From NCBI GenBank assembly GCA_958295955.1, contig OY282420.1, positions 1,812,435 to 1,876,434 on the forward strand: DNA of 64,000 nt, read 5' to 3'. The notes beneath the pieces were generated by a model. The model was not told the origin of the DNA. It ran no database searches and worked only from the letters and a program-made list of their open reading frames with translations. Source of the stretch: an uncultured Bryobacterales bacterium (lineage in GTDB: Bacteria; Acidobacteriota; Terriglobia; Bryobacterales; UBA6623). A program made the translations under genes and the position numbers. Shown in pieces: positions 43,847 through 53,074 of the stretch. The first letter of the stretch is position 1. Each line of letters opens with the position of its first letter.

Positions 43847-44956
43847 ATGTCCGGGCCGCTCATCGCCGTCGCCATGAGCGGAGGAGTCGATTCCTCCGCC
43901 GCTGCCGGATTGCTCCGGCGGCAGGGCGCAGCCGTGGTCGGCATGACGATGCAGTTGTGGAACCAGCAGCGCATGCCCGATCTGATTCCCGAGGGCGGCG
44001 CCTCGGGCCGCTGCTGCTCGCTTGACGACGTTTACGACGCCCGCTGGGCCGCACAGCACATGGGGATTCCCTATTACGTGGTCAATTTCGAAGACCGCTT
44101 CGAGCAAGAGGTCGTCAAGCCGTTCGTGGACGATTACGTTTCCGGCCGCACGCCGATCCCCTGCACCCTCTGCAACAACTTCATCAAGTTCGACCGCTTC
44201 CTGGAGACGGCCGAGCGGGTCGGCGCGGAGACGATCGCCACGGGTCACTACGCGCGCATTGCCTACGACGAGGACTCCGGCCGTTACCTGCTGCTGCGCG
44301 GAGTCGACCGCTCGCGCGATCAGTCGTATTTCTTGTTCGGACTGACTCAGGAGCAGTTGGCGCGGTCGCTGTTTCCGCTCGGCGGAATGCAGAAGAGCGA
44401 AGTGCGCAAGCTGGCCGCGGAGTTGGGGCTGGGCATGGCCGACAAGCCGGAGAGCCGCGAGATCTGCTTTGTTCCGAACGGCGACTACGCCGCGTTCATC
44501 GACCGTTATCTCGAAGAGCGGGGCGCCGGGCGGGCGGACATCGGGGGCGAGATCGTGACGGCCGACGGCAAGGTCGTGGGCGAGCACAAGGGCATCCATC
44601 GTTACACCGTCGGCCAGCGCCGCGGCTTGGGAGTCGCCGCGGGCAAGCCGGTTTACGTCACCGAAATCCTGCCCGCGGAGCGCCGCGTGGTCGTCGGCGC
44701 GGACGCCCGGTTGCTGCGCAAGGAGTTCGCCGTGCGCGAGGCCAACTGGATTGCGTTCGACGATCTCCGCGAGCCGGTCCGCGCCCAAATCAAGATCCGC
44801 CACCAGTTCGCCCCCGCCTGGGGCGAGGCGCGCCCCGGCAGCGCCCCCGGCGAGGCTGTGATCGCGTTCGACGAGCCGCAGCGCGCCGTCACGCCCGGCC
44901 AAGCCGCCGTCCTGTACCGCGGCGAGCAAACGCTCGGCGGCGGCTGGATCGTCTGA
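43847..44956 (+). CDS. mnmA: tRNA-uridine 2-sulfurtransferase
   Basis: The 369-residue enzyme thiolates U34 of tRNA Lys, Glu and Gln. It has the PP-loop [29 protein letters not shown], the first catalytic cysteine in [28 protein letters not shown], the second in [15 protein letters not shown], and [21 protein letters not shown] purine-rich ribosome site (GAAGGAAGGG) lies upstream. It is the last ordinary high-GC gene before the lower-GC island. Confidence 0.97.
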
Positions 44957-45044: not shown

Positions 45045-46586
45045 TTATGTAGTATCCTCGGTCGGCGTTGACTCGTCGCTGTGCGATTCCATCTCAATCG
45101 GAACGCGGAGAAGACCATCTTTCAGAAGTTTGATCGTATCGGGGTCTATCCCTGAAGTTTTCGCACGGGCGTGCCACTCCGCCACAGAGTCATAAATACA
45201 CTGGCGCAGATAGTCCCGCAAGCTCTCGGGCCCGGCAAGTTGAGTGCAAAAGTACGGATGGCTACGGTTGACGATGACTATAATCTCATCTCTCTTTGTC
45301 GAATCACTCACGACATAGGGATCGTTCGGGGACATTTCCTGCAGGAATATCTTCCAAGAGATCGGCGGCCTGCTGTTTATCGTGCCCTGAAGAGTTGGCG
45401 TCCATGTAGTAACAATGGAATTTATGGTCCTTTCTTTGTTCGCGCCGATTACCTCAGGAGGCGGGATTGTGCTGATTTGGATTCGGTCAACCATCTCCGG
45501 AGACGTGAGATCTTTCTCGATATCGTCAAGGGCAATCCTAATAGCCGCTTCATTCGGACCTCTTTGATCGTCGCCGGCCTTGCGACGTTTCTTTGCGAAG
45601 TCTCGGTAATCGGTACAATGCTCCTTTAGGCCAGTCTCAACGTCTTCCTCCTGGCTGTCACGCCAAAGGATGTTATCCTTTGTGTGGCTCACATCAAAGC
45701 CGTCCAGGTGAATTTCGCCGACAAGCCGCTGGTTGACTAAATCGTTGGAGCCCTGGAGCTGACCATAGAGACGTGACGGTCGCCAAGCGTCCGGCCAGCC
45801 CTTAACGACTCGGTTGGCCTGCAAAATCGAAAAGCCCGCATCGGCCCGACTACCCTTATCAAGGACGCCAACCCATCCCCGCACTTTCTTTCCGTCCACA
45901 TCGAACTCAAAGTCCTTGCGATACTTCTTGCCATTGGCGGCAACCAAGAGTCGCTCATCGAACGAATCCCATGTCAGAATCCCGTCCTGCCACCGCAGGC
46001 TGAGGATTCCCTTGCGTAAGTCTGAGCGGTACATCGAGCGAAGAAAGTCGGCGATCTTGCCGAGAGTTCTGCCATGGAACTTCCGGTTCATGGATACGAC
46101 CGTGACGATCGTGTAGTGCCGTTCCTCGGGTTTCAGCGTGTGCTTATGTACAACTCCATCCTGATGATCCTCCGCGACTTTATTCACGTCAACCACCACA
46201 TAATGCTCATACTTCTCTCCCAGCTTCTTCGTCGTGATGGTCCACTGGTCGCCCATCCAGCACGCGGCAGTCTTCATGCCCATGCCGTACTTCGAACGGC
46301 CAGTGGTATTGACAGGTGGGCGCGCGACATGAAGCGCATGTTCGAGATCGTCTCCGGACATCCCCATTGCGTTATCGGTAATACGCAACATCCCGGCTTG
46401 CCTGTCGTAGACGATTGAGACAGTCAGGATTTTGTCCTCTTCGTCTTTCATGTGTTCATCAAGCACGGCTTGATTGTCGAAGTACGACTGCGTCGAATTG
46501 TCGACAAACTCGGCAATGGCGTGCCACGGAGAGTAAGCGAGCCTCCGGTACGAAGTGATGGCGTCTGGCCCGATGATCATCTTCAT
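45045..46586 (-). CDS. MORC/MutL-like GHKL ATPase of a restriction-modification operon
   Basis: The 513-residue protein has a Bergerat-fold ATPase at its N-terminus. The N box is HAIAEFVDNSTQ (residues 23-33), with the metal-binding asparagine in FVDNS. The G1 box is RITDNAMGMS (68-77) and the G2 box is GRSKYGMGMKTAACWMG (96-112), close to the YGxGxKS lid of MORC proteins. An S5-like second domain (YTIVTVVSMNRKFHGRT) and a region with DGFDVSHTKDNILW follow. There is no histidine-kinase H box and no MutL endonuclease domain. Prokaryotic MORC-like ATPases are known to sit with SF2 helicases and nucleases in restriction systems. It may change DNA or complex topology using ATP. A GGGGGA ribosome site precedes it, 16 bp after the nuclease gene. 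Confidence 0.82.
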   Translation of the reverse strand: MKMIIGPDAITSYRRLAYSPWHAIAEFVDNSTQSYFDNQAVLDEHMKDEEDKILTVSIVYDRQAGMLRITDNAMGMSGDDLEHALHVARPPVNTTGRSKYGMGMKTAACWMGDQWTITTKKLGEKYEHYVVVDVNKVAEDHQDGVVHKHTLKPEERHYTIVTVVSMNRKFHGRTLGKIADFLRSMYRSDLRKGILSLRWQDGILTWDSFDERLLVAANGKKYRKDFEFDVDGKKVRGWVGVLDKGSRADAGFSILQANRVVKGWPDAWRPSRLYGQLQGSNDLVNQRLVGEIHLDGFDVSHTKDNILWRDSQEEDVETGLKEHCTDYRDFAKKRRKAGDDQRGPNEAAIRIALDDIEKDLTSPEMVDRIQISTIPPPEVIGANKERTINSIVTTWTPTLQGTINSRPPISWKIFLQEMSPNDPYVVSDSTKRDEIIVIVNRSHPYFCTQLAGPESLRDYLRQCIYDSVAEWHARAKTSGIDPDTIKLLKDGLLRVPIEMESHSDESTPTEDTT

Positions 46587-46602
46587 TGGTATTGCGTCCC
46601 CC

Positions 46603-47397
46603 TTATTTTTTGGTCCTGGGTCTGATGGCGAGTGCCTCGTTACCTTGTCGCACGATCTCGTAGGATTTACCTGGTGTCAGGTTGTGACCGCGTAGAGCAT
46701 GCAGATATACTGCGCCGCCTGTCTCGATTCTCTCCCACTCCGAAGCCCTTCCTTCATGATACAACAAGACCGTCTGATCCTGCTGCAAGGGGAGGTTGGC
46801 CGGCGAATGAATCGCTAAAAGCCGGTGAAGAAGCTGTTCACACTGGCAGCTTGTAATGATTTCTTCACTTTCCGACGGATAGTCGCCGTTGAGCCGGAGC
46901 AAGTATTTGTTCAGACGGCTTCTGAACATCTGGCAGATCATGACCCTTGCGCCCAATGAGTGGAGCGGCTCCGCCCATCCATCAACCGGCGAGTTTACAA
47001 TCACGAGAACCCGAGGCTGTTCGCCCTTGAACATTTCGAAGATTTTGTCCCTGCGAAGAGAAGCTTTGTGGAGACACAGATAGTCTGCCTGCTCACGACC
47101 GTAGTTGGCATGAGACAAGGTCCGCACCTGAGGTAGAACATGTCCTCTAAATGAGTGGTGTCCGAGTTCGACTTCGACAACCCACCAACCGCGATAATTC
47201 TTGTGGACAAGCGCAAAATCGGGCTTGCGAACGTCGCCGTCAACATCCGATGCGACAGGAGTTTTGAATGGAACCAAGAAATAATCGTCAAATAGCCGCC
47301 CTGCTTCTTGTTGGAGTATCTTTTCGAATTCCGCCTCGTAGTGGCCGCGACTGGCAATCTCCTCGAACCATTCGTCGTTGTAGAGAATACGAGCCAT
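46603..47397 (-). CDS. Putative PD-(D/E)XK-fold nuclease
   Basis: The ATG at 47397 overlaps the helicase stop by one base (TGATG) and gives 264 residues. The N-terminal part has helix YEAEFEKILQQEAG (residues 20-33), then KPDFALVHKNYRGWWVVEVE (58-77), which places P59-D60 and E75-V-E77 as in PD-(D/E)XK enzymes but with Glu in place of the final Lys. A later QVRTLSHANYG may be the supporting glutamine motif. The C-terminal ~80 residues form a beta-rich region (VYLHALRGHNLTPGKSYEIV). Position between helicase and MORC-like ATPase suggests it is the cutting subunit. The fold call rests on motif reading alone. Confidence 0.65.
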   Translation of the reverse strand: MARILYNDEWFEEIASRGHYEAEFEKILQQEAGRLFDDYFLVPFKTPVASDVDGDVRKPDFALVHKNYRGWWVVEVELGHHSFRGHVLPQVRTLSHANYGREQADYLCLHKASLRRDKIFEMFKGEQPRVLVIVNSPVDGWAEPLHSLGARVMICQMFRSRLNKYLLRLNGDYPSESEEIITSCQCEQLLHRLLAIHSPANLPLQQDQTVLLYHEGRASEWERIETGGAVYLHALRGHNLTPGKSYEIVRQGNEALAIRPRTKK

Positions 47398-48650
47398 CAA
47401 GATTCTCCGCACACTTGTTGCCGAGTGCCGGCAACCCATTCAACACGCGCCACATCTTCGAGGCGAACCGCTTCCTTGTAGAGGCGTTCGCTCTCTTGCT
47501 TGCTGGCATAGAGCGTATATATAAGCGCCTTGTCTTTCTTCTTCGCAGGCCGGAGAACACGCCCCAAGCGTTGAATCCTCTGGCGTCGGCTGGCGGTTGA
47601 ACTGGCGATGATCGCAACGGTCGTCTCTGGAACATTCATCCCTTCATCCAGAGCACGGCAGGAGATCAGAACATCGAACACGCCGCGGCGAAAAAGACGA
47701 AGGTTATCTCGTCTGACTTCAGGAGGGATTTTTGAATGATAAAGACAAACGCTGTGGTTACGCTTCTTGAGCGTCTTAAAGAGCATTTCAGCAGATCTGA
47801 CGCGTTCGTGAAATACAATGGCCCGCGCGCCGCGATTGTCCTCGATCAAACGCGCCGCGACCGGGAGCCTCATCGTCGCGCTAGCAGAAACAGCCGCACG
47901 CATCTGCAACACACGCTTCAGATGATCTTCCGAGCCGCGGCTATGGTCGGAGCGCATCCGGCTCAGAAGCGTTGCCGCGCGTTTGGTGAGACGGTCGTAT
48001 TTCTCTTTCTCATGGGGCAGCATCGCCACCTGAACGTTGATCAAATCGAAATGCGTAACAACGCCGTCTTTGTGAGCACTTGTGTATGTGTATTCGAAAA
48101 TGACCGGCCCGAGGGACGGCACAACGTATTCCTCAAAGCCGCTGTCGTATTCACGCTTCGGCGTAGCCGAAAGGCCCAGCGCCGCCGCGAATTTTCCCTG
48201 GATCGCTTTCGCGTTTTCCGGACTTCCGGCACGGTGGCATTCATCGACAATGAGGAAAGTCTTTGGAGTAACGAGTTCCCGAACCTTACGTCGAGCAGTG
48301 TTGATCACCAGAACATTGACGGCGCGAGCACGGCGCGCCTTTTCCTGGCTCGAGAAGCAGGCGATATCCTCAGGCGGTACGCAAAACTCTTCCTGGAGGC
48401 CGACATGCCATTGGTCAAGCAATGTCATCGTGGGCACCAAGACAATGACTCGCCCGTCAGGATGCCGTTTACGAAACTCGTGCATGCACAGGAATGCGAA
48501 CACCGTCTTTCCGCCTCCGGTAACGACACTTACGACACCGCGCATGTTGCCAAGCAGCCAATCCTGCAGTGCCTGTTCCTGCCAAGCACGGGCCGCGAGG
48601 CGCAACGACCACGGAGACGGCGACGCTGCGTCATCAACAAGGACTGTCAT
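47397..48650 (-). CDS. Superfamily 2 DNA helicase (XPB/type III restriction-like)
   Basis: The 417-residue helicase starts with ATG overlapping the methyltransferase stop (ATGA). The order of motifs is a Q-like RAWQEQALQDWL, motif I VVTGGGKTVFAFL, motif Ia LVPTMTLLDQW, motif II FLIVDECHRAG, motif III LGLSATPKRE, motif IV AIVFHERVRSAEMLF, motif V LISCRALDEGMNVPE and motif VI RRQRIQRLGRVLRPAKK. The DECH box and compact size fit translocases of the XPB/UvsW group. It lacks a fused nuclease, which is encoded by the next gene. It probably translocates on DNA during restriction. Confidence 0.9.
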   Translation of the reverse strand: MTVLVDDAASPSPWSLRLAARAWQEQALQDWLLGNMRGVVSVVTGGGKTVFAFLCMHEFRKRHPDGRVIVLVPTMTLLDQWHVGLQEEFCVPPEDIACFSSQEKARRARAVNVLVINTARRKVRELVTPKTFLIVDECHRAGSPENAKAIQGKFAAALGLSATPKREYDSGFEEYVVPSLGPVIFEYTYTSAHKDGVVTHFDLINVQVAMLPHEKEKYDRLTKRAATLLSRMRSDHSRGSEDHLKRVLQMRAAVSASATMRLPVAARLIEDNRGARAIVFHERVRSAEMLFKTLKKRNHSVCLYHSKIPPEVRRDNLRLFRRGVFDVLISCRALDEGMNVPETTVAIIASSTASRRQRIQRLGRVLRPAKKKDKALIYTLYASKQESERLYKEAVRLEDVARVEWVAGTRQQVCGES

Positions 48651-49600
48651 TGAGCTTTGGGAAATCTTCCTTTGGAGCCTTGAACATAGTCTTCGGTTGG
48701 TTCGATCGAAAACCAGCGGCGGCCGAGAGCTTCCGCCGCCGCGCCCGTCGTGTTGCTCCCCGCGAAAGGATCGAGAACCAGCATCCCGGGTTCTGTCAGA
48801 AATTTGATGAAGAACTCTGCTAGTCCCATAGGCATCCTGGCGGGATGCGGTTGAAGATCGTTAGCACGGCAGTAGTTCAGATAACTGGAGTTAGATTGTG
48901 TGTTCGCGAGCGTGATCATGTTCGATGGAATCGCACCGGCGTTGTTTTTCAGGAAGGATTTTTTTCCGATATTATGTTCGGATGGCCGTTTTCCATTGTT
49001 ATAGCTCCGGCGTACGAGAAGTTTTTCCATCGAATCACTGTATTTCTTGAGGACTTGGCGATTATCGGCGTGAGGCCTATCCGTTGATGCCATCCACCAG
49101 AGGTGCGTGTATGAGTCCTTTACGCGAATACGCTCTACGTTAACCCATTGTGCAGGACTAGGCAACCGTGCCGGATTGTGCCACACGAACTGCTGACACA
49201 AGAAAAAGTCACCTTTTTTTCGAAATTCCAAGAGGGCTTCGAGGGCTAGGGTAGACATAACAGGCAGCCCGTGCTCCCACGCATTGCCAAGTTCGAGCAC
49301 AATAGAACCCTTGGGTTTGAGCAATGTCCTGAACAATGATGCAAATCCCACCAGCCACTTAACATATTCCTCACCTTGCTTATTCCCGTACTTTTTTCTC
49401 TTGTTGAGAGGAAATGGGGGTGATGTAAAGATGAGGTCAACCTTGTGTTCCAAATCCTTCTTGTACTTGGGCCGCTTAAGAACGTGCTCAGCTTCACCGA
49501 TAATAGAGCTGCCGAGCGCGGTCTTGAACGCAACAGGCGGGCTATATATCTGGCGGGAGGGGGCGCCGCGAGACGCATTCTGGTTGCCGGAGGTCGACAT
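48647..49600 (-). CDS. M.PvuII-like DNA methyltransferase (probably N4-cytosine)
   Basis: The ATG at 49600 gives 317 residues. The catalytic motif IV is DLIFTSPPFPLNKRKKYGN (TSPPF near residues 59-63). The SAM-binding motif I comes later, as LVLDPFAGSNTTGAAAEALG, the beta-class order. Segments between (GEEYVKWLVGFASLFRTLLK, WHNPARLPSPAQWVNVERIR, VKDSYTHLWWM, KRPSEHNIGKKSFLKNNAGA) follow M.PvuII closely from memory. TSPP(Y/F) with this layout indicates N4-cytosine methylation, but N6-adenine cannot be ruled out. It presumably protects the host sites cut by the linked nuclease. The target sequence is unknown, though a CAGCTG-like site is a testable guess. Confidence 0.9.
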   Translation of the reverse strand: MSTSGNQNASRGAPSRQIYSPPVAFKTALGSSIIGEAEHVLKRPKYKKDLEHKVDLIFTSPPFPLNKRKKYGNKQGEEYVKWLVGFASLFRTLLKPKGSIVLELGNAWEHGLPVMSTLALEALLEFRKKGDFFLCQQFVWHNPARLPSPAQWVNVERIRVKDSYTHLWWMASTDRPHADNRQVLKKYSDSMEKLLVRRSYNNGKRPSEHNIGKKSFLKNNAGAIPSNMITLANTQSNSSYLNYCRANDLQPHPARMPMGLAEFFIKFLTEPGMLVLDPFAGSNTTGAAAEALGRRWFSIEPTEDYVQGSKGRFPKAQ

Positions 49601-49602
49601 TC

Positions 49603-49785
49603 TTATTCGCTGAGGGTTTGGTGACGCGTGGGCAGGCTCTCGTATCCGACGTCGTCTGCGGTACATCGGCAGAACAAATCTTGACCAAGAGCAGTCCAGG
49701 TTGGAATCCGATGGTCCACGTCTTCTCGATGTTCATGATACTTGATGTTGCCTGCCGTTTCCCGAGCAAGCTCGCAATTTTCCAT
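49603..49785 (-). CDS. Possible small gene before the methyltransferase
   Basis: An open frame of 60 codons from ATG at 49785 ends in TAA three bases before the methyltransferase ATG. It reads MENCELARETAGNIKYHEHR, then EDVDHRIPTWTALGQDLF, and ends ESLPTRHQTLSE. The abutting stop suggests co-translation. No helix-turn-helix is visible, so it does not look like a restriction control (C) protein. Overlapping frames are also open, and the call is weak. Confidence 0.3.
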   Translation of the reverse strand: MENCELARETAGNIKYHEHREDVDHRIPTWTALGQDLFCRCTADDVGYESLPTRHQTLSE

Positions 49786-50341: not shown

Positions 50342-53074
50342 TTAGGGGTCGACCGGGAAGTTGAAGAACGCCGGCGAGACGGCGGCAACCGCAACCGTCT
50401 GCTCCGGACTGCGCTGCTCGCTGCTCGTCCCGCAGCCGAAGATGACCGTTGCCCGGGACTGCCCCGGCGGCAACTCGCGCGGGACCTGAGCGTTGATCTG
50501 ATTCTCGGTCACCGTGAACAGTGGCGCGCGCCTGCCGCCGATCTCCAGGCAAGCACCGGCGAGATTGGCGGCAACTCTGCCCGCGGCGTCCAGCACGGGG
50601 CTCAGCACGCGCGTTCCTCGCGGCGCGAACCCCTGCCCGTAAACGGAAATCAGGGCGTTTGGGGAGATGCTGCTCACAACGGGGGCGCCGGTAGCCAATA
50701 CGACGCCGCCCGAGGAGATGCGGGGTTCGCTTGGCGGTGCGTCGATGAACTGCCGGATATGCGGGTAGAACGCCGAAAGGCTGGTGTAACCGGCACGCTG
50801 TCCTATCGGGCACGTATTTTCCTCGTTCCTTTCTATGTAGCTGGCCGCTCCAACCAAAACCTTCCCGGAAGCGGTGAAAAGGCCGCTCCCGGAAGAACCG
50901 CCCTCGAGGAGACCCCGGGTCCAGGAAACGACAGCGTAAACATCGTCGGAAGTTCCTCCGGAACCCGCGCGAACGGTGCGGCCAAAGGAAATCCTCTTGA
51001 AAATGCCGAAGTCTTCGCTCCCCGGATGATGGATGCCGGCAACTTGCAAATCGGGAGACTGAGGTCTCGCGTCCCAGCCCGAGAACCGGACGCCGTCGGG
51101 CAAATCGCCTTCGAGTTGCAGCAGCGTCATGTCGCCGTCGGGCTCGTCGAAGCCGCCCAATGTCGCCAGCAGGCGCGCCCCCGCGGTCCTCGGCGCGCTG
51201 CGTATATCGGGCGGCTCTCCGTTACAGGTTTGCGTCTGATAAAGCCAGAGCGCGGTCACGCTCCGCGCTGTCTCTCGGGTATTCACGCAATGGGCGGCGG
51301 TGAGGAAATAAGGCGTAAGGTCCTCTCGCTGGTTGTTCAGCAGCGTGCCCGAGCAGATACGAGTGCTTCCGTCCCTCTCGTATATAATCAGCGCCACGCT
51401 CGACGCGGTTTCCGACCATTCGGGGTAGCAGGTCGCGTCGAGGTGACAGTTCCTAGCCGTCTCCACTTGCGCCGTGAGCGTGCCCTCGGCGACGACGCCC
51501 GTGTCGATGAGCGCCAACGAGATGAAGTAGGTTCCGGCTCGGAGCGGCGGGCTGGAAGAGCGGGTAATGACGACTTCCTCGTTGCCGAATGCGCCTGTAG
51601 AGGAATAATCCGAGACAACATCTCCCGACCGGATTTCGTTGTCCCGCTCGAAACGGACGTACAAGTCCACGTCCACTAAGCGGTCGGCATTCAAAGTGAA
51701 GGTTACGCGGGAGGCGTTGGCCGGGACCTGCAAGCGGAACGAGAAGTCGCCGCGGAAAAGCGTCGGGGCGTCAACCGGCCCCAAGCGGAAGCCGCCGGGC
51801 CGGCCGGGCGTGAGCAGGCCGCCGCTGCGGTTGGGCTCCGCTGTCTCCACTTGCGCCGTGAGCGTGCCCGATGCGGTGACGCCCGTGTCGAAGAGCGCGA
51901 ACGAGACGTAGTAGGTTCCGGCTCGAAGCGGCGGACTGGAGGAGCGTGTAATGACGATTTCCTCGTTGCCGGATTCGTTGCGCGCGGAATAGTCCGAGAC
52001 AACTCCTCCCCCCTCCCGAAGAGCGTTGTCCTCTCCGAAACGAACAAGCAGGGCCACGTCCACCAAGCCAGCATCCAAAGTGAAGGTTACGCGGGAGGCG
52101 TTTTCGGGGACCTCCAAGCGGAACGAGTTATCGCCGGTGAAAAGCGTCGGGCTGTCAACCGGCCCGAAGCGGAAATTGACAGGCTCGCCGGGCGTGAGCG
52201 GGACGGCTGCCTTCCTCGGCGGTCCGTCGGACAAGCGCCGCGCCACGACCGATGCGAACTTCGCGTCTGCCCCCCCGGCGCCGGCGGCCGGCGGCTCTGC
52301 CGCTTCCCGCACTGCAACGCCGACCAGGGCGGTCCACGGTTTTGCCGCAGGCTGCGCGCCCGCGGCCGGCGCAGGCAGGCGTGCATCGCCCATAAACCCG
52401 GGGCCGCCCCAGATATGGCTGACGGCGGCAATCCGAAACGGAACGGCCTCTTCCGCCGCCGCCGTCGGACCGGGCAGATACTCGATCGTCGCGCTGCCGC
52501 CGAAAACGATGCCGCTCCAGAAGTCTCCGTCGCCGTACATGCCCCGGCCGCCGTAAGGCCCGGCAACCTGCCCGTCCGCCCCATGGACCCAGACATTCCC
52601 CGTGCCCACGTCGAAATCCTGAAAATGAATGCGCAGCGCGCGGGCGGCGGGTGAGGTTATCCGCAGGCGCCAGAGCCGCCCGACAACGGTCGCCTGCCAC
52701 GCTCCCGCAACAGTCGTTTTGGCTGTCCCGCCGGAAAAGCTCAGCGCCGCCGCACCCTGCGGCAAGGAACGATGGACGCCGACGGGCGTCAGCCCCTCTT
52801 GCGGCTGCAAGCGATCCAGATCGTCGGGACCCAATGGCGGCAGGGCAACCGCGGCGGGGGCCGGCAGGCTCAGCCCCAAACTGGGCGGCTGCGCCGCCGC
52901 CGCGCGCTCAGCCGACGCCTTCGGCTGCCGCCGTCCCTCGAAAAGCGCCGGCCCGACCGCTTGCCCCCAAGCCGACTGCGCCGACAGCGCCAACGCCGCG
53001 AAAAAGAGAATCCGCGGCGGCGCACAGAGAAGATACCGTACGATTCCCAAAGGTTTCAGCGCAAGCCGGTTCAT
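50342..53074 (-). CDS. Secreted trypsin-like serine protease with two PPC-type domains and a truncated C-terminal domain
   Basis: The 910-residue protein has a signal peptide (ILFFAALALSAQSAWGQ). After a ~250-residue beta-rich N-terminal region come two similar pre-peptidase (PPC)-like domains, about residues 290-411 and 420-538 (repeated GPVD(S/A)PTLF, SRVTFTL, SGNEE or FGNEE, ITRSSSPPLRAGTY). Then a trypsin-like domain has the triad His in YFLTAAHCVN (~595), Asp in EPDGDMTLLQLEG (~649) and Ser in LEGGSSGSGLF (~728). The C-terminus is the first half of a TIGR03437-like domain (SPNALISVYGQGFAPRGTRV). The frame stops at TAA inside this domain and continues in frame beyond it. Likely an outer-surface or extracellular protease. 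Confidence 0.85.
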   Translation of the reverse strand: MNRLALKPLGIVRYLLCAPPRILFFAALALSAQSAWGQAVGPALFEGRRQPKASAERAAAAQPPSLGLSLPAPAAVALPPLGPDDLDRLQPQEGLTPVGVHRSLPQGAAALSFSGGTAKTTVAGAWQATVVGRLWRLRITSPAARALRIHFQDFDVGTGNVWVHGADGQVAGPYGGRGMYGDGDFWSGIVFGGSATIEYLPGPTAAAEEAVPFRIAAVSHIWGGPGFMGDARLPAPAAGAQPAAKPWTALVGVAVREAAEPPAAGAGGADAKFASVVARRLSDGPPRKAAVPLTPGEPVNFRFGPVDSPTLFTGDNSFRLEVPENASRVTFTLDAGLVDVALLVRFGEDNALREGGGVVSDYSARNESGNEEIVITRSSSPPLRAGTYYVSFALFDTGVTASGTLTAQVETAEPNRSGGLLTPGRPGGFRLGPVDAPTLFRGDFSFRLQVPANASRVTFTLNADRLVDVDLYVRFERDNEIRSGDVVSDYSSTGAFGNEEVVITRSSSPPLRAGTYFISLALIDTGVVAEGTLTAQVETARNCHLDATCYPEWSETASSVALIIYERDGSTRICSGTLLNNQREDLTPYFLTAAHCVNTRETARSVTALWLYQTQTCNGEPPDIRSAPRTAGARLLATLGGFDEPDGDMTLLQLEGDLPDGVRFSGWDARPQSPDLQVAGIHHPGSEDFGIFKRISFGRTVRAGSGGTSDDVYAVVSWTRGLLEGGSSGSGLFTASGKVLVGAASYIERNEENTCPIGQRAGYTSLSAFYPHIRQFIDAPPSEPRISSGGVVLATGAPVVSSISPNALISVYGQGFAPRGTRVLSPVLDAAGRVAANLAGACLEIGGRRAPLFTVTENQINAQVPRELPPGQSRATVIFGCGTSSEQRSPEQTVAVAAVSPAFFNFPVDP

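Follow-up and report, generated by a model that had tools for sequence, protein, structure and literature searches.

The window considered here is a 64,000-nucleotide stretch (positions 1812435-1876434 of contig C1) of the 4.58-Mb genome of an uncultured Bryobacterales bacterium. On its minus strand, running from 49600 to 45045, lie four intact open reading frames (ORFs) that overlap or abut, and that encode a DNA methyltransferase, a superfamily 2 (SF2) helicase, a nuclease-like protein and a GHKL ATPase. The block probably came in by horizontal transfer and probably encodes an ATP-dependent restriction-modification system of the prokaryotic MORC type, which would operate by the mechanism proposed below. 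In animals and plants, MORC proteins are known for gene silencing. The restriction-modification reading is based on the match of the methyltransferase to M.PvuII, the XPB-like motor, the Bax1-like fold of the nuclease with its invariant E, D and E-x-E residues, the MORC motif of the GHKL protein and the linkage of the four genes.

The GHKL gene (45045-46586, minus strand) codes for a protein of 513 residues that matches Pfam HATPase_c_3 (2e-19). Its ATP motifs are intact, namely the N-box EFVDN at residue 26 (with D29 and N30), DNAMGM at 71 and GMGMK at 101; HTKD is also present at 301. In the alignment, the key residues of the ATP motifs are invariant across nine homologues. According to the text of Iyer et al. 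(2008, PMC2292703), the MORCs are united by the motif GhXhhpXXRhl in the S5-fold region, which excludes other GHKL proteins. The motif occurs as GFSILQANRVV at residue 251 of the window protein and is found in 12 of 14 GHKL homologues, against a background of 0.5% of shuffled sequences and 1/214 other ORFs. This published motif supports the assignment of the protein as a prokaryotic MORC-type GHKL ATPase, as had been claimed in an earlier, sequence-only reading of the same DNA.

The methyltransferase gene (48647-49600, minus strand) encodes 317 residues from the ATG at 49600, although a longer in-frame start exists at 49666. The protein matches Pfam N6_N4_Mtase (1.6e-36), and its family profile aligns with M.PvuII (1boo) over the whole length (3.4e-113, profile positions 18-314), a match far exceeding that of any adenine methyltransferase. 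Motif IV (TSPPF, residue 59) precedes motif I (DPFAGSNTT, residue 277), which is the beta-class order. PADLOC likewise assigns the protein to MTase_II (7e-88), compared to just 4.8e-10 for MTase_III. Judged by its sequence, the enzyme is a beta-class member of the M.PvuII family. It is predicted to methylate cytosine at N4, because of the whole-length match to M.PvuII and the order of motifs IV and I. Members of the family were also observed in G1408 and G1411, same-family relatives of the window genome (L065 4912-6198 and L066 8085-9110, both minus strand), where they occur without the helicase, nuclease or GHKL protein of this system; in L066, a 521-residue ORF lies directly upstream of the methyltransferase.

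The helicase gene (47397-48650, minus strand) encodes 417 residues, with matches to Pfam ResIII (5e-21), Helicase_C (5e-20) and ERCC3_RAD25_C (1.4e-10). Its nearest solved structures are archaeal XPB/RAD25 proteins (1e-46), the XPB of the XPB-Bax1 complex being among them. Motifs I (GGGKT, residue 45), II (DECH, 136) and VI (QRIQRLGRVLR, 357) are intact, and neither a Z1 nor a nuclease domain was found in the 417 residues. The PbeA and TIGR04095 profiles give good scores, but only the helicase part is covered: the PbeA match spans profile positions 250-635 of 672, which is the helicase half alone. From these matches, the protein is classed as a stand-alone SF2 motor of the XPB/Rad25 type. The motif DThhQXuRhFG, described for the helicase C-terminus of the type 3 MORC operons of Iyer et al., has no match in it.

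The nuclease-like gene (46603-47397, minus strand) encodes 264 residues from the ATG at 47397, with a longer version of 278 residues in the ORF list. Its product gave no match in Pfam, PDB sequences, PADLOC or NCBIfam (nor did any PADLOC model match the GHKL protein). The family was therefore assigned by fold, using an AlphaFold2 model and VIA-align. The model (mean predicted local distance difference test, pLDDT, of 85) comprises two domains. The core (approximately residues 20-175) resembles PD-(D/E)XK nucleases, with Z scores of 8.9 for NucS, 8.7 for EndoMS, 7.7 for Bax1 and 7.4 for SduA, while the C-terminal part (approximately 175-264) resembles the B3 DNA-binding domains of plants (Z 8.2-8.7). 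In the alignment of seven homologues, E21, E25, D60, E75-V-E77, H86 and Q90 are invariant, and the D60/E75/E77/H86/Q90 block is also found in an eighth (G1487). The lysine of the canonical E-x-K is thus replaced by an invariant glutamate in all homologues. Restriction enzymes with E-x-E do exist, BamHI being an example. The absence of BamHI, EcoRII and BfiI from the listed fold matches carries no evidential weight. Conservation is lowest in the B3-like half of the protein (9-52% identity, versus 22-69%), as is expected of a specificity domain. The protein is accordingly modelled as a PD-(D/E)XK core with E-x-E followed by a B3-like DNA-binding domain.

The sequence-only reading had described four collinear intact genes with a particular set of junctions, and both descriptions agree with the sequence. 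The methyltransferase and helicase genes share an ATGA overlap (CAATGACAG), the helicase and nuclease genes a TGATG overlap (CTTGATGGC), and the nuclease and GHKL genes are separated by 16 nt (46587-46602; TAA-GGGGGACGCAATACCA-ATG) containing GGGGGA, which is similar to a ribosome-binding site. It missed that the methyltransferase belongs to the PvuII family (predicted N4-methylcytosine, m4C), that motor and nuclease resemble the XPB-Bax1 pair, and that the nuclease is modelled with a B3-like specificity domain.

That reading further took the genes for a conserved restriction-modification-like operon and suggested looking for the same four together elsewhere. Genomes were searched with the GHKL protein and then the nuclease as bait, together with one scan of named species genomes (1,973 genome look-ups overall, including those for the methyltransferase and for DNA patterns). 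All four families occur together in seven genomes, the window genome included. They span the window's own phylum and two or more other named ones. A lack of co-occurrence, which the sequence-only reading had named as a finding that would refute it, was thus not observed. Because homologues of all four adjoin in seven genomes, the operon is more than a chance arrangement. The other complete loci are those of G108, a genome of the window's phylum (GHKL and methyltransferase 64-69% identical, nuclease and helicase 53-56%), an Actinomycetes metagenome-assembled genome (MAG; 63-72% identity to the window proteins), Nitrospirillum amazonense, Mesorhizobium caraganae, its genus-mate G1014, and the alphaproteobacterium G291. 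The gene order is the same in six loci and permuted in G291 (methyltransferase-GHKL-helicase-nuclease). The eighth nuclease, in G1487, directly follows the end of a helicase on a 3.9-kb contig. In all loci the nuclease gene is separate from that of the helicase.

Across the seven loci, the distances of the GHKL protein, nuclease and helicase correlate tightly (Spearman 0.86-0.91), those of the methyltransferase less so with the other three (0.33-0.56). Such distances suggest a co-evolving restriction trio combined with a somewhat exchangeable modification enzyme. The same weak correlation would also be compatible with two independent units that lie side by side by coincidence. One would be a PvuII-like methyltransferase of a simple type II system, the other a module of helicase, nuclease and MORC with another function, such as restriction that depends on modification (type IV-like). 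The relatives with PvuII-like methyltransferases but no trio point in the same direction. Nevertheless, the methyltransferase adjoins the trio in 7/7 complete loci, across the phyla mentioned above and even where the genes were reordered, and in the window its gene overlaps that of the helicase by ATGA, which suggests that the two are translated together. Two separate units are thus considered very unlikely.

In the preferred reading, a single restriction-modification operon, the following mechanism is proposed as the most economical one in view of the parallels with CglI/NgoAVII, XPB-Bax1, MORC2 and VcSduA. The M.PvuII-like enzyme would mark a specific site in the cell's own DNA with N4-methylcytosine and so protect it. 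The B3-like domain of the 264-residue protein would read the same site when it is unmethylated, with PD...E-x-E as the putative cutting center. The XPB-like protein would serve as a double-strand DNA motor (translocation) for the nuclease, as archaeal XPB does for Bax1 and H.CglI for R.CglI. Finally, the MORC GHKL protein may form an ATP-dependent dimer that acts as a clamp or bridge and allows cutting only once the motor or a second site is engaged. Sequence and model show the four families, their linkage, the conserved active-site residues and the two-domain build of the nuclease, whereas methylation at N4, cutting, translocation and the clamp or gate role of MORC are inferred. A more specific version is held only tentatively: the dimer of the MORC-type GHKL protein, closed by ATP, might clamp or bridge DNA and thereby couple the XPB-type translocase to the B3/PD-ExE nuclease bound at its site. 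Cutting would then be gated by ATP in a way unlike that of types I, III and CglI, and the trapping of DNA by eukaryotic MORCs might have its functional origin in such a mechanism.

Eukaryotic MORC2 is an ATP-driven DNA clamp and compaction machine in vitro (PMC12216690). This property would also suit a silencing system without any cutting, in which MORC compacts or traps incoming unmethylated DNA in the manner of eukaryotic MORC1/2, and the E-x-E protein does no more than bind DNA as an adaptor and mark the target. The replacement of the canonical nuclease lysine in all homologues would fit such a role. On the other hand, E, D and E-x-E are strictly kept even in one homologue with 18-27% identity, suggesting metal-dependent catalysis, and the nuclease is present in 7/7 complete four-gene loci. 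Moreover, the MORC of relatives adjoins a different PD-(D/E)XK protein (DUF4420) in an operon with a C5 methyltransferase and a Z1 protein. Silencing without cleavage is thus regarded as unlikely.

Another possibility is that the methyltransferase, XPB-like motor and B3-nuclease alone carry out a CglI-like restriction, and that MORC has only a regulatory role that cutting does not require, for instance as a sensor of DNA ends, stress or assembly. Indeed, CglI and NgoAVII restrict with a methyltransferase, a B3-containing nuclease and an SF2 motor but no GHKL protein. The presence of the GHKL gene in every complete locus, with distances that parallel those of the motor and the nuclease, makes a dispensable regulator rather doubtful. 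As this is a sub-variant of the preferred explanation, the likelihoods of the two overlap.

Several observations weigh against the restriction-modification reading as a whole. The AlphaFold2 model of the GHKL protein is of low confidence (pLDDT 41), and the protein has no match to Pfam Morc6_S5. The PvuII-like methyltransferase family is also present away from the operon in relatives. For the nuclease, E-x-E without the usual lysine could mean that cleavage has been lost or requires a partner. Its model was built from four sequences, the Z scores are middling (7-9) and give a fold-level assignment only, and a Foldseek search alone with this model returned nothing below E 0.03. Lastly, avoidance of CAGCTG does not follow the presence of the operon.

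The hexamer CAGCTG was tried as the recognition site of the operon. It is absent from the window (0 versus 5.9 expected) and rare in the 4.58-Mb genome (37 sites versus 1500 for the reversed control). Relatives with no match to the PvuII-like methyltransferase are nearly as depleted (G1400, 196/4948; G1402, 130/2710; G1421, 89/1965; G1422, 41/939). Neither G1408 and G1411, which have such a methyltransferase, nor the operon carriers G248 and G1014 show any depletion. The candidate was rejected, as depletion tracks neither the operon nor the methyltransferase in 65 other genomes used as controls. The avoidance itself is patchy by lineage, with some relatives strongly depleted and others containing about 2400 sites.

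The four-gene block was probably acquired by transfer, because its GC content dips to 53.4% (compared to 65.3% in the remaining window) and no 4.5-kb stretch of the window is poorer in GC than the one beginning at the operon border. The system is also rare: counting the bait genomes, it was found in 2/385 genomes of the Nitrospirillum class, 2/119 genus-mates of M. caraganae, 1/296 genomes of the actinomycete's phylum and 3/396 genomes of the window's own phylum. The GHKL protein of the window shares 70% identity with the actinomycete copy and only 64% with the copy from its own phylum, which fits horizontal transfer, with the caveat that the actinomycete contig stems from a MAG and may be mis-binned. 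The block is flanked by mnmA (43847-44956, convergent) and the gene of a trypsin-domain protein (50342-53074). A search for insertion boundaries gave no convincing direct repeats at the operon ends. In same-family genomes, mnmA is not kept in synteny with the other window genes, so that no empty site can be read. Predicted promoters and terminators of the operon were not clearly above those of shuffled sequences. No copy of the system was found in the phages and viral contigs searched with the GHKL protein, nor in the viral contigs and plasmids searched with the nuclease; the plasmid matches of the GHKL protein belong to other operons.

Two of the other loci have neighbors that support the restriction-modification reading. 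The M. caraganae cluster contains two extra genes (L005 2355-3854 and 4954-5946), encoding a protein with an Mrr_cat endonuclease domain before the methyltransferase and an MTaX1-HNH_2 protein between methyltransferase and helicase. Possibly, these form a second restriction activity that shares the methyltransferase. The permuted G291 locus (L015 9414-15723) adjoins a phage-type integrase and a HerA/SIR2_2 pair, and its surroundings are likely a defence island. On a Haladaptatus plasmid (L010 8875-14353), a distant GHKL ATPase without the MORC motif was observed beside a short hypothetical and a large helicase-related protein; this locus may be a paraMORC operon.

Among characterized systems, CglI and NgoAVII are ATP-dependent and fall outside types I-III (PMC4267653, PMC5737866). 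Like the window operon, they combine a methyltransferase, a separate SF2 motor and a separate nuclease with a B3-like domain, but they use a PLD nuclease, a DEAD-Z1 motor and a C5 methyltransferase and have no GHKL ATPase. None of the former three was found in the window operon by Pfam or structure search. The sequence-only reading considered the mechanism to be unlike types I to III, for which such three-gene systems already provide characterized precedents. In archaea, XPB pairs with the nuclease Bax1 in a repair complex. The solved structures closest to the window motor are archaeal XPB, and the nuclease core matches Bax1, among others, in fold, but we know of no methyltransferase, B3 domain or MORC in XPB-Bax1.

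Control of a PD-(D/E)XK nuclease by a GHKL ATPase is thought to occur in VcSduA (Shedu type I-D, paraMORC3), a tested anti-phage protein (PMC12137116). VcSduA differs in being a single fused protein (GHKL-DUF4263), paraMORC3 rather than MORC, without methyltransferase or helicase, whereas the window genes are separate and their products have no match to DUF4263. The sequence-only reading had stated that few if any such systems had been tested. A GHKL-containing defence protein has since been tested; for a bacterial MORC, or an operon containing one, the literature searched yielded neither a biochemical test nor one with phages.

The type II system PvuII shares the methyltransferase family, but the cutting side in the window consists of three proteins and looks ATP-dependent, unlike a small homodimer such as R.PvuII. 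Type III systems are composed of Mod and a Res with fused helicase and nuclease, which are separate in the window. In Dnd/Pbe phosphorothioate restriction, PbeA is an HKD-helicase fusion of which only the helicase half is matched, and neither a CxC ABC ATPase nor DndE is among the four window genes. The MZA system was rejected as well (MzaB, NF041932: 21 bits versus a cut-off of 850).

MORC proteins of the same family occur in operons with a C5 methyltransferase, Z1 and PD-(D/E)XK (DUF4420) proteins, as on the Rathayibacter plasmid NZ_CP047182, whose two MORC copies are 27-28% identical to the window GHKL protein. Neighborhoods of C5 methyltransferase and MORC were also found in the Pseudomonadota genomes G1374, G1379 and G583. 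In this group of operons, too, MORC lies next to a methyltransferase and a motor-like protein, but the methyltransferase is of the C5 type, a Z1-type protein takes the place of the XPB-like helicase, and the nuclease is unrelated.

The operon class itself is already known as a prediction. Prokaryotic MORC restriction-modification operons and a DNA-looping mechanism were proposed in 2008 by Iyer, Abhiman and Aravind (PMC2292703), so that the loop or clamp mechanism put forward in the sequence-only reading is not new, although the idea stands as a proposal. The text of the same paper suggests that eukaryotic MORC proteins derive from bacterial restriction operons. With a compact 4.6-kb set of four genes that has clear counterparts in N. 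amazonense and M. caraganae, this origin hypothesis becomes directly testable, as does the contribution of a MORC clamp to a restriction complex built of motor and nuclease. The combination of a PvuII-like m4C methyltransferase, a free XPB-like motor, a PD-ExE nuclease with B3 and MORC is absent from the text published in 2008, though Figure 2 of that paper may show the exact layout. As far as that text goes, the nuclease of the type 1 (Rad25-like) operons (RE-fold, i.e. restriction endonuclease fold, or HKD) is commonly fused to the helicase, whereas in the window it is a separate gene with its own modelled B3-like domain. The text also names cytosine and rarely adenine methylases, while the window enzyme is predicted to belong with the N4-cytosine methyltransferases of the PvuII family. 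In both cases, a MORC GHKL protein with the S5-region motif, a Rad25-type SF2 helicase, an RE-fold nuclease and a DNA methylase are brought together in one operon with a sporadic, mobile distribution.

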